From NCBI RefSeq assembly GCF_000746025.2, contig NZ_CP045798.1, positions 62,001 through 126,000 of the forward strand: a DNA stretch of 64,000 bases. The letters run 5' to 3'. This document shows positions 15,987-21,625 of the stretch, one piece after another; the first letter of the stretch is position 1; each line of letters begins with the position of its first letter. This stretch comes from Thermanaerosceptrum fracticalcis (lineage in GTDB: Bacteria; Bacillota; Peptococcia; DRI-13). A model generated the notes under the pieces. It saw nothing but the letters and a program-made list of their open reading frames with translations, was not told where the DNA came from and made no database searches. The position numbers and the translations under genes were made by a program.

Positions 15987-16865
15987 TTAGTGAGTTTTTA
16001 ATACAGCATGATGGGGGTCGGAATTGCCGCTTTCATGACAGGATTCACAGCTAAGAGTATCTTCTTTGAACATCAGCCCCCGGGCATTGCCGTGGGGATT
16101 GTGACATTCCAGGCATGACTGTTTGGGTGTGAGATTAGCCGGTTTTTCACCGCCGGCATGACATATGTAGCAGGAATCTTCATTAACGGCAATGGCTGCA
16201 GGACTGCCTGTAGCAGCATGAACACTTCCCGGACCATGACAGGTTTCACAGCTCATACCACCAGTGAGTTTGTTGGAACCGGGAGCCTGCAAAGCCTGGG
16301 CGGCCAATCCCGGGCTATGGCAGGTGGCGCAGTCTCCGTAATTTCGGACTCCCCAATCTTTTGTACCATTTTTATCGTAATCTTTTTCGATAGCCGGGGT
16401 TAATTTCCAGGCATTGTTCTCTTGGGCCAGGTCGGCAATACGGTATAAGCCCAGCCTATCACTTGTAAATCCTGTACCAGGCTTAAGTGAAGCTACAAGA
16501 TGCCGGTCGGCCATAATACCGTTAATCTCTGGCTGGGTTAAGGTAATATCCAATTTTACAGGCTTATTCTTATTGCCATCATCATAAACGGTAATGGTTT
16601 GATTTAAATTGAGACCGGGATAATGGGCGGCTGCTTTGAATAAAGCGGCATGAGTGGTTTTATTAAATGAGTCCATAATTGTACTGCCGTGACAGGATGT
16701 ACAGGTCTGTGAGCCCACATAGGCAGCTTGACTAATATCGATAGGCTCAGCCTGTATGGTGCTGTTATTTGGAGCAGGAGACAGGGGCTTTGGGCTGGAA
16801 CAAGCCGCTGACAGGACAAAAACGGCAAAAACTAGTATAAATAAAGCCTTCGAATGTTTTTTCAC
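15987..16865 (-). CDS. Hexaheme c-type cytochrome lipoprotein
   Basis: 292 residues from a GTG start at 16865 with AAGGGAGG 11 nt upstream. The signal peptide ends at a lipobox (LSAAC), so the protein is anchored outside the cell membrane. Six CxxCH heme motifs are present: CTSCH, CATCH, CETCH, CYICH, CLECH, CESCH. The spacing between first and second motif (about 120 residues) leaves room for a globular domain of unknown role. The C-terminal motifs resemble doubled-CxxCH domains. Genes for ResB/CcsA maturation proteins start divergently 304 bp away. Confidence 0.85.
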   Translation of the reverse strand: MKKHSKALFILVFAVFVLSAACSSPKPLSPAPNNSTIQAEPIDISQAAYVGSQTCTSCHGSTIMDSFNKTTHAALFKAAAHYPGLNLNQTITVYDDGNKNKPVKLDITLTQPEINGIMADRHLVASLKPGTGFTSDRLGLYRIADLAQENNAWKLTPAIEKDYDKNGTKDWGVRNYGDCATCHSPGLAAQALQAPGSNKLTGGMSCETCHGPGSVHAATGSPAAIAVNEDSCYICHAGGEKPANLTPKQSCLECHNPHGNARGLMFKEDTLSCESCHESGNSDPHHAVLKTH

Positions 16866-17168: not shown

Positions 17169-18302
17169 ATGCTGAAATTCTTTTCTTCGATGAAAGCGGG
17201 TTTAATCATTATGGGGCTCATTATCATAGCATCCATTGCGGGAACGCTCCAGCCCCAATCTACCATATATAAATCCTTTTGGTTTAATGGTTTGCTCTTG
17301 CTTTTGACTATTAATCTGACTGTGTGTACTTTCCGGCGTATACCGGGTTTGCTGGAAAAAATCAAGGGTTTTTCTCCGGAAGAAAAGGAAGAGTTCCCCG
17401 TGGAAGAAGGAATTAAGGTAGAAAGTTCGCGAGACAGGGAAGCCAAAATCCTGGAGGCTTTAAGAAATAAGGGTTATAAAGTAAACCTTATGACCCAAAA
17501 AGACTACAGTTGCATCATAGCCCGCAAAGGTATTTTGTACCTGATTGCTCCCCATTTGCTGCATATTTCGCTGATTGTTATTTTTTTGGGGGCTTTGATC
17601 GGTTCCACAGGTGAATCAATCAATGTGGGCGGCTATGTGGGTGATGTTACCCCTATCCCGGAGAAGGTGGCCAAAACTCACCTTCTTCTTAAAATCAAGG
17701 ATTTCCAGACTGTGTATGACAAGGATAAAACTGTTGATAACTGGGAATCAGCCATCGCCCTGCTGGCAGGTGAAAGCATCGTGGCCGAGGGGACAACAAA
17801 AGTAAATCATCCCTTTAAATATAAAGGGATGACCTTTTACCAGAGCGGGTATGGCTATAACCATCTGATAGAAGTGCAGGGAGAAGCGGAAGGTAAGCAC
17901 ATCATTCCCCTCAATAAGGTGTTGTCCCTGGCGGGGAGGATGTTTAAGATAGAGAAAGCTCCGGGGATGGGTTATGTGTTAAAGGTTTACGAGAACCATA
18001 CCAAGTATGACACTTATGAATTGAAAGAAGGGACCGTCATTAATTTCCCCAACGCTACTATTTTGAAATACCTGGGGGAGAAACCCTATACGGTACTGAA
18101 GGTGAAGACAGACCCCGGAACCCCTGTGGTCATGAGCGGATTCTTCCTAATGACCCTGGCTTCTTTTCTTTTCTGGACCGGAAGCTACCGCGAGATTAAA
18201 ATAGGGTTTAATCACACAAAACAATTGGCAAAATTCCAGGTAATCTGCCGGAATAAAAGCGTGCAGGAGAAACTGCACCAAGAAATGACTGCTTTATTAT
18301 AA
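17169..18302 (+). CDS. resB: ResB-family cytochrome c biogenesis protein
   Basis: 377 residues. N-terminal helices (about 9-27 and 36-54) with the SMKAGLIIMGLIIIASIAGT signature, a third helix near 125-145 after IAPHLLHISLI, a large extracytoplasmic domain (about 150-310), and a last helix near 320-340. This is the ResB/Ccs1 part of System II cytochrome c maturation, which keeps apocytochrome cysteines reduced and delivers heme together with CcsA. It is 13 bp from the CcsA gene. The cytochromes on both sides supply an obvious need. Confidence 0.88.
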   Translation: MLKFFSSMKAGLIIMGLIIIASIAGTLQPQSTIYKSFWFNGLLLLLTINLTVCTFRRIPGLLEKIKGFSPEEKEEFPVEEGIKVESSRDREAKILEALRNKGYKVNLMTQKDYSCIIARKGILYLIAPHLLHISLIVIFLGALIGSTGESINVGGYVGDVTPIPEKVAKTHLLLKIKDFQTVYDKDKTVDNWESAIALLAGESIVAEGTTKVNHPFKYKGMTFYQSGYGYNHLIEVQGEAEGKHIIPLNKVLSLAGRMFKIEKAPGMGYVLKVYENHTKYDTYELKEGTVINFPNATILKYLGEKPYTVLKVKTDPGTPVVMSGFFLMTLASFLFWTGSYREIKIGFNHTKQLAKFQVICRNKSVQEKLHQEMTALL

Positions 18303-18315
18303 AGGGGGTTCGTTT

Positions 18316-19125
18316 GTGGAAACCACATTACTCTATTTACTGACCACTTCCGGGGTTTTCTTTTTAGCCGCAGCCATCTTTTATATCCTTAATTTTTTCA
18401 ACCATTCGGAGGCCAAGGCACAAGTAGCATCAGGTGCATCTTCAATAGGTTTTTTAGGTACTACGGCGGCCCTTGTTGTTTATACCATAGGGGTGGGGAG
18501 AGTTCCCCTGGCCAGTATGTTTGAGTTCGGGCTCTTTTTCTTATGGAGTATTGTAGGAATTCACCTGTTCATCGAATATAAATATAAACTGAAGCAATTA
18601 GGGGTTATCGTTCTTCCCATGGTTTTTTCTATGACTCTATGGCTTTTAATGATTGAGAAGGGGTCCAGGCCCTTGATGCCGGCCCTGCGTAGCAACTGGC
18701 TGTACTTTCACGTTTTCACCGCTATCATGGCTTATGGGGCTTTTGCCGTATCTTTTGCCGTAGCTCTTCTTTACCTCATTAAGGAGGGGGCAGGCGGGAA
18801 TTTTGCCAGGAACTTACCTCAGCTGGAAGTCCTTGATAATTTAACCCACAAGATTATCATGGTAGGGATGCCCTTTTTAACACTCTGCATTGTAACGGGC
18901 GCTGTTTGGGCTGAATATGCCTGGGGGAGTTACTGGAGCTGGGATCCCAAGGAAACCTGGTCCTTAATAACCTGGTTTGTTTATGCCGTTTATCTTCACG
19001 CTCGCTTCGTGGCTAACTGGAAAGGGAAGAAAGCCATCTACCTGGCTATAGGCGGGTTCTTAGCTGTACTTTTTACCTTCTTCGGGGTAAACCTGCTGCT
19101 TCCCGGCCTGCACAGCTATAAATAA
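18316..19125 (+). CDS. ccsA: CcsA/ResC-family heme handling protein
   Basis: 269 residues from a GTG with an AAAGGGGG site. Eight predicted membrane helices. The WWD heme-binding motif reads WGSYWSWDPKETWSLI (near 206-221), with candidate axial histidines in LYFHVFTA, LTHKII and YLHARF. With ResB it completes System II heme attachment to CxxCH motifs outside the membrane. Both genes are intact, so the several multiheme cytochromes in this window can be matured. Confidence 0.92.
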   Translation: METTLLYLLTTSGVFFLAAAIFYILNFFNHSEAKAQVASGASSIGFLGTTAALVVYTIGVGRVPLASMFEFGLFFLWSIVGIHLFIEYKYKLKQLGVIVLPMVFSMTLWLLMIEKGSRPLMPALRSNWLYFHVFTAIMAYGAFAVSFAVALLYLIKEGAGGNFARNLPQLEVLDNLTHKIIMVGMPFLTLCIVTGAVWAEYAWGSYWSWDPKETWSLITWFVYAVYLHARFVANWKGKKAIYLAIGGFLAVLFTFFGVNLLLPGLHSYK

Positions 19126-19183: not shown

Positions 19184-19501
19184 TTATTCGTTTGGCAATA
19201 ACTCCGGTATTAATCCTTTGACAACGGTAATGGCATCATTATCAATAACACTATAGGTAATTTCCGTGCCGCTTCTTCTACCCTCAATAATACCGGAAGC
19301 TTTTAACTTCCCAAGGTGCTGGGAAATAGTGGACTGAGGTAATGAGAGACAGCTTTGCATCTTTGTAACGTTACAGCCGCCTGTCTCTAAGAGGTTTCGT
19401 ACAATACACAAACGGACGGGATGGGCTAGAGCCTTGAGTATTTCAGCTTTAGATTCCAGGATTTTCTTTTGTTTTTCTGTCATTGTCATTGTTTCGGACA
19501 T
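19184..19501 (-). CDS. ArsR/SmtB-family transcriptional regulator with three cysteines
   Basis: 105 residues with the ArsR winged helix: KALAHPVRLCIVRNLLE, then recognition helix SLPQSTISQHLGKLKASGII and wing GRRSGTEITYSV. Cysteines 32, 43 and 51 lie where metal- or thiol-responsive members carry their sensing pair (C43 and C51 flank the alpha3-N region). Such dicysteine ArsR proteins include persulfide sensors (BigR/SqrR type) as well as metal sensors. A rhodanese lipoprotein gene lies next upstream on the same strand, which favours a reactive-sulfur signal, but this is inference. Confidence 0.82.
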   Translation of the reverse strand: MSETMTMTEKQKKILESKAEILKALAHPVRLCIVRNLLETGGCNVTKMQSCLSLPQSTISQHLGKLKASGIIEGRRSGTEITYSVIDNDAITVVKGLIPELLPNE

Positions 19502-19730: not shown

Positions 19731-20225
19731 TTATTTCTCTACAGGATACTTTTCAGCTTCCCAGGAAGGGAATCCACCTTTGAGGGAAACGGCATTCAGG
19801 CCCAGGACCCTTAAAGCGCCTACAGTTTGACCGGCGGTTTGACCGCTGTAGCAGACCACTACGATTTGCTTCCCCTTAGGGAGTTTATCCAGGTTTTCCC
19901 CGACTTTGGCAAAACCGATGTTGGTAGAGCCGGCAATACGGCCTTTAGCGAAGTCCTCGGGTTTTCTGATATCGAGGATAAATACGCTGCCGGCCTGGGC
20001 ATCCATGGTTTCCTTCAACTGTTTGGGTTCGATAATGTTATTGCTTTTAGCAATGTCTGCAAAATATCTTACTACGGCTTCTTTAACGATGGCGTTTTTA
20101 TCCACCGGTGCAGGGGCAGGAGCCGGTGCGGGAGCAGGAGCGGGAGCAGGCTTAGAACCGCCGCAGCCCACCAGGCTGAGGGCTAATACCAGTACTAAAA
20201 CAATCGCAGTTAACCGTTTGAACAT
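19731..20225 (-). CDS. Rhodanese-domain lipoprotein
   Basis: 164 residues. A signal peptide with lipobox (SLVGC, Cys21) is followed by a Pro-Ala linker (26-40) and a rhodanese domain (about 65-162). The active-site loop is CYSGQTA with catalytic Cys125; the LDIRKPEDFAKGRI and GGFPSWE stretches complete the fold. It would transfer sulfane sulfur outside the membrane, for instance handling polysulfide or thiosulfate. It is next to the multiheme cytochrome gene on the same strand (53 bp apart), so both may be one operon. Confidence 0.85.
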   Translation of the reverse strand: MFKRLTAIVLVLVLALSLVGCGGSKPAPAPAPAPAPAPAPVDKNAIVKEAVVRYFADIAKSNNIIEPKQLKETMDAQAGSVFILDIRKPEDFAKGRIAGSTNIGFAKVGENLDKLPKGKQIVVVCYSGQTAGQTVGALRVLGLNAVSLKGGFPSWEAEKYPVEK

Positions 20226-20278: not shown

Positions 20279-21625
20279 TTACTTATCCACCAGGAGTTTT
20301 TCATTAGCCTTGCTGTCACTGGGTCTAAGGTCTTCCTTAGTGAGGTAGAGTCCTTTGGTAGAATGGCAGGTCTCACAGTCGCTGTTTTGTGGTGTAAACC
20401 TTTGGATGTTGTGCGTAGGGGAAAGCTTCCAGTTGGGAATCTCATCAAAGTTGGGCAGAGCGTTTTTCCCCAGGGCGTCAAAACTGTTCTTGATGGTGGG
20501 GATATGTCTTACCGTAATGTATTTTTCCGGGTGTAACTTGTCGGGAGCAGGGTTTTTGCCGATCTTGAACATCAGTTTGACTTCCGAGTGACTGGCCAGT
20601 TTACCGTCTTCCTTTACATTAATATGACATTCAAAGCAGTTATTGGTAGCACTGGAATGGCAGACCTGACAGCTTAAAGTGTTTTCCGGATGGGCTTTAT
20701 GGGCTTCGATTTTACTCTCGGGACCATATGTATCTTTGTGACAGTCCAGGCAATCAGGCAGATCCTCTTTCAACATCATCTCGGTAGCTTCCGGTTTGCT
20801 GCCGTGGAAGTTGGTAGCAGGATGACAGTCTATACAGGTCAGGCCTTTCTGGTAATGAACGTCAGCAGTGATTCCGACAGTACCGGTATACTCGGCACCG
20901 TTTCTCGTACTATGACACAAGACACAGTTCTTTTCCATATCAGGCATCACAAACTGGTGTTGGGCCAAAAGGCCGCCGCTCTGGGCTTTGGGTCTGCTGA
21001 CATGACAATCGCCGCAGGAGACATGACAGGTGGAGCAGTTCCCGGCAAAGGCCTCTTTCAAAGCACCGTCTTCATTAAGAATTCCTTCGTGAGAAAACTC
21101 CTCCAGTGATTTAACGAAACCTGTTTGTTTAAAGTGTAAGGAATCTTTAAAAGTGTCGGCAATCTCTTGATGGCATTCGGCGCACACACCGCCGCCAACA
21201 GTGTCGCTGGGGTCTTTTACAAGGTCTTTATGCGCCAGGGTCATATCCGCCGAGTTTTGCCCGCCGTGGCAGGTCCGGCAGTCCAGATTGCCATGTTTGG
21301 TATCCATAAAGCCAGGGGAAACCAGTGATCTCTCAGTCCCGCTGAGAGGAGGGGGCGGAGCACCTCAGCCACCTGTGGCTTCCTTAGGTCCCTCGGGCTT
21401 GGCTGCTAATTTTTCAATAGTCTCGGGATTCGTGTGACACTGGATACACTGGTCCGAGGGTTTTTGCTGGCTTAAGAGGCTGCTGTTCATGGCAAGCTTC
21501 TTAGCCTGCGGGGCGGCGGGCAGTGTGAATACGGCACTTTGTTTGACACCTTGGGGGTTACCGCAGCCGAAAGTGAAAATTAACACAAAACTGAGCAATA
21601 AAACTATTGCACGTTTTTTCAACAA
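20279..21625 (-). CDS. Undecaheme c-type cytochrome lipoprotein with in-frame UGA (candidate selenoprotein)
   Basis: Two frames (21625 to 21365 and 21307 to 20279) are in the same phase and separated only by one TGA at 21365-21367; reading through gives a single protein of about 448 residues. The first part has a lipoprotein signal (FTFGC) and heme motif CIQCH. After the TGA the frame stays open (GAPPPPLSGTERS then GFMDTKHG) and carries ten more CxxCH motifs (CRTCH, CAECH, CSTCH, CGDCH, CVLCH, CIDCH, CLDCH, CQVCH, CFECH, CETCH). The UGA stands in the context GG-UGA-GA. A 7-bp hairpin follows it (separate entry). Either selenocysteine is inserted or this is a fresh nonsense mutation. The internal ATG at 21305-21307 has no evident ribosome site. 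Confidence 0.65.
21330..21367 (-). promoter_or_regulatory. UGA codon with bacterial SECIS-like hairpin
   Basis: Downstream of the TGA at 21365-21367 on the minus strand, CTCTCAG (17-23 nt after the codon) pairs perfectly with CTGAGAG (29-35 nt), enclosing the 5-nt loop CGGGA. Bacterial SECIS elements are hairpins immediately 3' of UGA with a G among the first loop bases and the loop roughly 16-37 nt away; this fits. The similarity is structural only and could be chance. Confidence 0.45.

Follow-up and report, generated by a model that had tools for sequence, protein, structure and literature searches.

The window, i.e. the whole 64,000-nt stretch of Thermanaerosceptrum fracticalcis DNA analysed here, carries on its minus strand a gene for an undecaheme c-type cytochrome (20279–21625) that begins with TTG and encodes 448 residues with 11 CxxCH motifs when an internal UGA is read as selenocysteine (Sec87). 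Re-reading the sequence bears out the layout proposed in an earlier, sequence-only reading of this DNA: one minus-strand frame runs from 21625 to 20279 with the TGA at 21365–21367 as its sole break, the 19 codons from this TGA to the next ATG are open, the 5′ piece of 86 codons holds a lipoprotein-type signal and one CxxCH, and the 3′ piece holds ten CxxCH. The UGA sits in the motif ATGG-U-GAPPPPL, and the signal (...FTFGC21; 21563–21625, minus strand) is assigned from sequence alone. The product is predicted to be secreted and is probably anchored at the surface, and the suggestion that it is a large extracellular cytochrome is plausible given the lipoprotein signal. Pfam models that score above their cut-offs (Cytochrome_C7, Cytochrome_C554, and Cytochrom_c3_2) place the predicted protein among the multiheme c-type cytochromes. 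Sequence matches to known structures, with undecahemes such as UndA considered, are weak and fall on nitrite reductases and other cytochromes, while a Foldseek search of the AlphaFold model (pLDDT 82.8) against the PDB returns no match at E ≤ 0.001, so the fold offers no functional clue.

Next to the cytochrome, on the same strand, lies a gene for a rhodanese-like lipoprotein with the active-site loop CYSGQT (19731–20225, minus; PF00581, E 2.4e-17), which is a conserved neighbor of the family described below. A regulator of the ArsR/SmtB family (19184–19501, minus), weakly similar to BigR, a repressor that senses sulfite, stands beside this cytochrome–rhodanese pair, and two convergent genes on the plus strand encode ResB of system II cytochrome c synthesis (17169–18302; PF05140) and a CcsB/CcsA-type cytochrome c assembly protein (18316–19125; TIGR03144, PF01578). 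Just past the ResB/CcsB genes, the window also holds a second secreted multiheme c-type cytochrome of 292 aa with a lipoprotein-like signal (15987–16865, minus).

An interrupted frame of this kind could reflect a nonsense mutation, a pseudogene, an assembly error, or readthrough with an amino acid other than Sec, and the stop codon itself is the one point that favors such a reading. The genome of the same genus (G001), the only other one of the host's taxonomic family compared, encodes a cytochrome that is 94% identical and keeps the same TGA, which excludes both an error of sequencing and a newly arisen nonsense mutation. Between the two genes, 104 of 449 codons differ (81 synonymous and 23 nonsynonymous changes), and the excess of synonymous over nonsynonymous codon changes 3′ of the TGA (70 vs 12) indicates that this part is under coding constraint. 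A 105-nt block that spans the TGA and the adjoining hairpin (21288–21392, minus) shows no nucleotide change in this pairwise comparison (p about 0.001 under random placement of changes). The single fresh nonsense mutation that the sequence-only reading had kept as its alternative is therefore contradicted, as the sister species shares the TGA and the 3′ part is under purifying selection.

A search of class-level genomes finds no relative outside the genus, and as such the family was traced at the phylum level. Among 399 genomes of the host's own phylum, there are twelve full-length relatives, including that of the window, each with exactly one in-frame TGA and with eleven canonical heme motifs in all but one, L025, which has ten. 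A scan of one genome per species across 84,980 species yields 433 relatives; the best 80 of these all carry an in-frame TGA, located between heme 1 and heme 2, and the predicted Sec in these 80 is surrounded by Gly-rich motifs (e.g. GGUGxxxPxL, AGUGVSAPQV, GEGUGGPLAPL, and GEGUAGPPPP). Hosts are Bacillota, Spirochaetota, Desulfobacterota lineages, Chloroflexota, one Nitrospirota, and one Actinomycetes bin, with Anoxynatronum buryatiense and Malonomonas rubra among the isolates. In a second phylum (395 genomes), 50 of 51 matches that span the site have one TGA, and where its position was examined it falls at the same place in 29 of 30 loci, again within a Gly-rich motif. More distant multiheme relatives (L034–L037) are without the Sec loop, and a scan of viral contigs for the family found nothing. 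In the tree, the Spirochaetota sequences cluster in a single branch alongside Bacillota sequences, a placement that suggests, without proving, gene transfer.

In an alignment of 76 rows, the Sec column does not vary, and the only replacements found among the homologues examined are Ser (TCA), in a contig-end copy from the host's phylum (L030), and Tyr, in the remaining locus of the second phylum (L152). These two residues are not accounted for by loss of the Sec trait, given that tRNA-Sec occurs in the L152 genome and SelB in that of L030. The homologues thus have UGA rather than Trp, Gly, or a gap at the site, in line with the sequence-only reading, whereas the Cys version that would also be expected is absent from the homologues examined; the usual argument from Sec/Cys pairs is consequently missing here.

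The sequence-only reading had also pointed to a SECIS-like hairpin beginning 17 nt past the TGA, and the sequence confirms it: CTCTCAG and CTGAGAG form a stem of 7 bp (21348–21330, minus) around the loop CGGGA, which starts 24 nt after the UGA. The published model of bacterial SECIS elements (bSECIS) asks for a G within the first two loop positions and a loop 16–37 nt after the UGA (PMC13188914), and the hairpin of the window fits this model. By itself, it is energetically unremarkable, since the 55 nt after the TGA, folded alone, show no gain in stability over shuffled versions (z +1.6), and the case for Sec accordingly rests on the family rather than on the stability of a single hairpin. We applied the same constraints (PMC13188914) to 86 distinct family sequences, with in-frame sites of the same genes and synonymous shuffles as controls. 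A qualifying hairpin is present in 74 of 86 sequences, compared with 60 of 258 control sites and 102 of 258 synonymous shuffles; when the loop is fixed at 16–18 nt after the UGA, the counts become 70 of 86, 8 of 258, and 32 of 258, respectively. The G occupies the same loop position in 83 of the 86 sequences, and compensatory changes occur in the stem (C-G to G-C, and T-A to G-C or C-G). In the larger class of sequences, stem pairing holds in 86% of cells vs 36–54% when the stem is slid. The hairpins of the window and its sister lie 6–7 nt further 3′ than those of most relatives, within the accepted range.

Machinery for Sec insertion is complete in the host genome, where the four sel genes that the earlier reading had proposed to look for are all found—i.e. 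selC beside selB, and selA with selD directly after it. The host SelD also contains a Sec encoded by UGA (KGG-U-AAK; L161:6641, G000:C1 about 2742640), with a strong hairpin after the codon, and it thereby gives Sec decoding in this host an internal positive control. A standard ORF search of this gene returns only the part after the UGA. Its Sec lies in a Gly-rich loop (GG-U-AAK), as does that of the cytochrome, but the two proteins are unrelated in fold and function and the resemblance is local only. Across the family, of 30 genomes tested for SelB, most of which hold relatives, 28 score above the cut-off (phylum baseline 263 of 399), among them every genome of the host's phylum with a TGA-bearing relative; among 28 second-phylum genomes tested, 26 yield a tRNA-Sec. 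The missing SelB (2 of 30) and tRNA-Sec (2 of 28) possibly reflect incomplete bins.

Physical linkage to the Sec machinery is seen in Spirochaetota. Specifically, three loci (L052, L065, and L101) have the gene order rhodanese, selA, selB, cytochrome, ResB, CcsA, and the cytochrome also lies directly downstream of selA-selB in L053 and of selB in L063, selA being seen wherever the contig covers both sel genes. This gene order suggests that the Sec machinery and the cytochrome of these bacteria may be passed on together as a single unit.

Conserved UGA, SECIS, sel genes, and coding constraint on both sides of the codon together support the Sec interpretation put forward in the sequence-only reading, and the UGA is almost certainly decoded as selenocysteine. 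The presence of a TGA in nearly all relatives across phyla, the two-sided coding constraint, the conserved SECIS, and the selAB linkage make a nonsense mutation, pseudogene, assembly error, or non-Sec readthrough exceedingly improbable; a fresh nonsense mutation, a pseudogene, and reassignment of UGA to Trp are all rejected on comparative data.

The rhodanese recurs across the family. It lies within 3.5 kb of the cytochrome in 54 of the 69 loci whose cytochrome frame can be read (within 600 nt in 53), against a background of 1 rhodanese among 265 ORFs lying more than 4 kb away, while about a fifth of the 69 loci have no rhodanese within 3.5 kb. In one locus (L068:7965-10169), the Sec cytochrome is naturally fused to two rhodanese domains. 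Genes for system II cytochrome c assembly, present in the window too, are frequent neighbors of the family, and in many relatives ResB is the gene that immediately follows the cytochrome. CsoR-like regulators occur near some Chloroflexota members and ArsR regulators near others (L097, L098, L105, and L111); both regulator families include persulfide or sulfite sensors, and these neighbors are in line with a role in sulfur metabolism. Overall, we consider it highly likely that the locus represents a genuine family of Sec cytochromes with a rhodanese partner.

The family appears to be undescribed as a selenoprotein. Of the 119 prokaryotic selenoprotein families inventoried in 2026 (PMC13188914), two are multiheme c-type cytochromes, namely ExtKL and the TIGR04315 octaheme, and the family of the window is not among the 119. 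No NCBIfam model (June 2026) scores over its cut-off for the window protein, and the NCBIfam matches of 76 members include no selenocysteine-cytochrome model. A search of part of the literature for a Sec cytochrome of this type returned only ExtKL and the table of the 2026 review, and an earlier description elsewhere is conceivable. Very probably, therefore, these genes encode a new family of Sec multiheme cytochromes, of a kind that is already known from the pairing of a Sec cytochrome with a rhodanese in ExtKL/ExtH.

ExtKL (NF040886, 'cyt_C_like_Sec') resembles the window protein in being a multiheme c-type cytochrome with one Sec and a rhodanese-like protein in its cluster, but it has 5 hemes with the Sec after the last heme in AGHxIPDG-U-P, whereas the window family has 11 hemes with the Sec between heme 1 and heme 2 in GG-U-G or GEG-U-GG. 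Membership in NF040886 is rejected because there is no NCBIfam match and both the heme count and the Sec motif differ. One genome encodes tandem ExtKL-family copies without a TGA (G469:C12:96118-97377 and 97481-98740) together with a TGA-containing ExtKL copy. The TIGR04315 family, annotated as tetrathionate reductase family octaheme and with a GenBank-annotated selenoprotein (PMC13188914), is likewise multiheme with one member listed with Sec, and its link to sulfur chemistry parallels the role proposed below; it differs in being octaheme, while the window protein has 11 hemes. Membership in TIGR04315 is rejected at 20.6 bits against a cut-off of 375.

In the Geobacter ext cluster, the rhodanese ExtH and the Sec cytochrome ExtKL are implicated in selenite and tellurite reduction (PMC5877670, PMC6148476), and the same pairing raises the alternative that the window family acts as a selenite or tellurite reductase whose Sec would bind selenium or tellurium intermediates. 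In keeping with this, similarity below cut-off links several partner rhodaneses to ExtH, and it also links many members of the family to ExtM, ExtN, and ExtO. The cytochromes, however, do not match the ExtKL model and are unlike ExtKL in heme number and Sec site, and selenite reduction would be a poor general reason for conservation as wide as that observed; we regard this alternative as unlikely.

Other known systems offer parallels in sulfur metabolism. In Dethiobacter alkaliphilus (DealDRAFT_1917/1918), a multiheme cytochrome directly beside a rhodanese gene is upregulated on thiosulfate, with DealDRAFT_1917 described as SirA-like, octaheme, and without selenocysteine (PMC10376724, PMC5609068). 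Family loci L069 (Dethiobacter sp.) and L163 also have a directly adjoining rhodanese, and DealDRAFT_1917, likened here by gene layout, may correspond to the 3′ portion, as annotated, of a gene of this family. More generally, rhodaneses feed respiratory sulfur enzymes; in the Sud/Psr polysulfide respiration of Wolinella, for example, a rhodanese passes sulfane sulfur to the respiratory reductase. The catalytic subunit of Psr is a molybdenum enzyme, whereas the protein here is a Sec multiheme cytochrome, and the likeness between the two is a proposed analogy.

On this working analogy, Sud rhodanese feeding polysulfide reductase would have its counterpart in a system where a heme wire and a selenol replace the molybdenum enzyme. 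With UGA codon 87 decoded as Sec by SelB, tRNA-Sec, and the hairpin just 3′ of it, the partner rhodanese would bind, on its own cysteine, sulfane sulfur drawn from polysulfide, thiosulfate, or persulfide. The selenolate of the Gly-rich loop would then accept the rhodanese-bound sulfur as Se-S, and electrons arriving via the heme chain would release the Se-bound sulfur as sulfide. Both the sulfur substrate and the direction of the electrons are inferred by analogy. Joint action of the cytochrome and the rhodanese on sulfane sulfur seems somewhat favored, and for the reductive direction of electron flow the chances fall a little short of even.

Multiheme cytochromes are able to run in both directions, and an oxidative mode would send electrons from extracellular sulfide or persulfide to an extracellular acceptor, with the rhodanese clearing the sulfane sulfur formed. 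The record titles place many hosts in sediments and in lineages that include sulfur disproportionators, both of which would suit oxidation, while the thiosulfate-induced cytochrome–rhodanese pair of D. alkaliphilus would, if it belongs to this family, argue for reduction. We assign this oxidative mode a low probability. It is also conceivable, if quite improbable, that the Sec is a structural or heme-axial ligand rather than an acceptor of substrate sulfur: Cys is an axial heme ligand in some sulfur-cycle cytochromes, and both the invariance of the position and the nature of its sole replacements, Ser and Tyr, which are possible ligands, are compatible with this. Against it, residues 81–90, which form the Sec loop, are modeled at low confidence (mean pLDDT 55, in an AlphaFold model without hemes), as for a mobile loop.

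A selenol wired to eleven hemes would constitute a new redox site. Nearly all known selenoproteins have Cys counterparts, on which standard discovery pipelines depend (PMC13188914), and a family that counts its candidate homologues in the hundreds and lacks a Cys form could thus escape them, with its members likely annotated as truncated cytochromes. More broadly, and as a tentative proposal that we hold at rather less than even confidence, these proteins may be an ancient, widespread class of respiratory enzymes in which Sec on a multiheme cytochrome would be the rhodanese-fed catalytic site for reduction (or oxidation) of sulfane sulfur, Sec would be obligatory as reflected in the lack of a Cys form, and the gene may contribute to the retention or spread of the Sec machinery, Spirochaetota, where selAB adjoins the cytochrome gene, being an example. 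The Sec cytochrome would be a candidate for unexplained sulfur and thiosulfate respiration in bacteria without classical reductases, and the selAB linkage in Spirochaetota offers a setting in which to test whether Sec machinery travels along with a respiratory gene.
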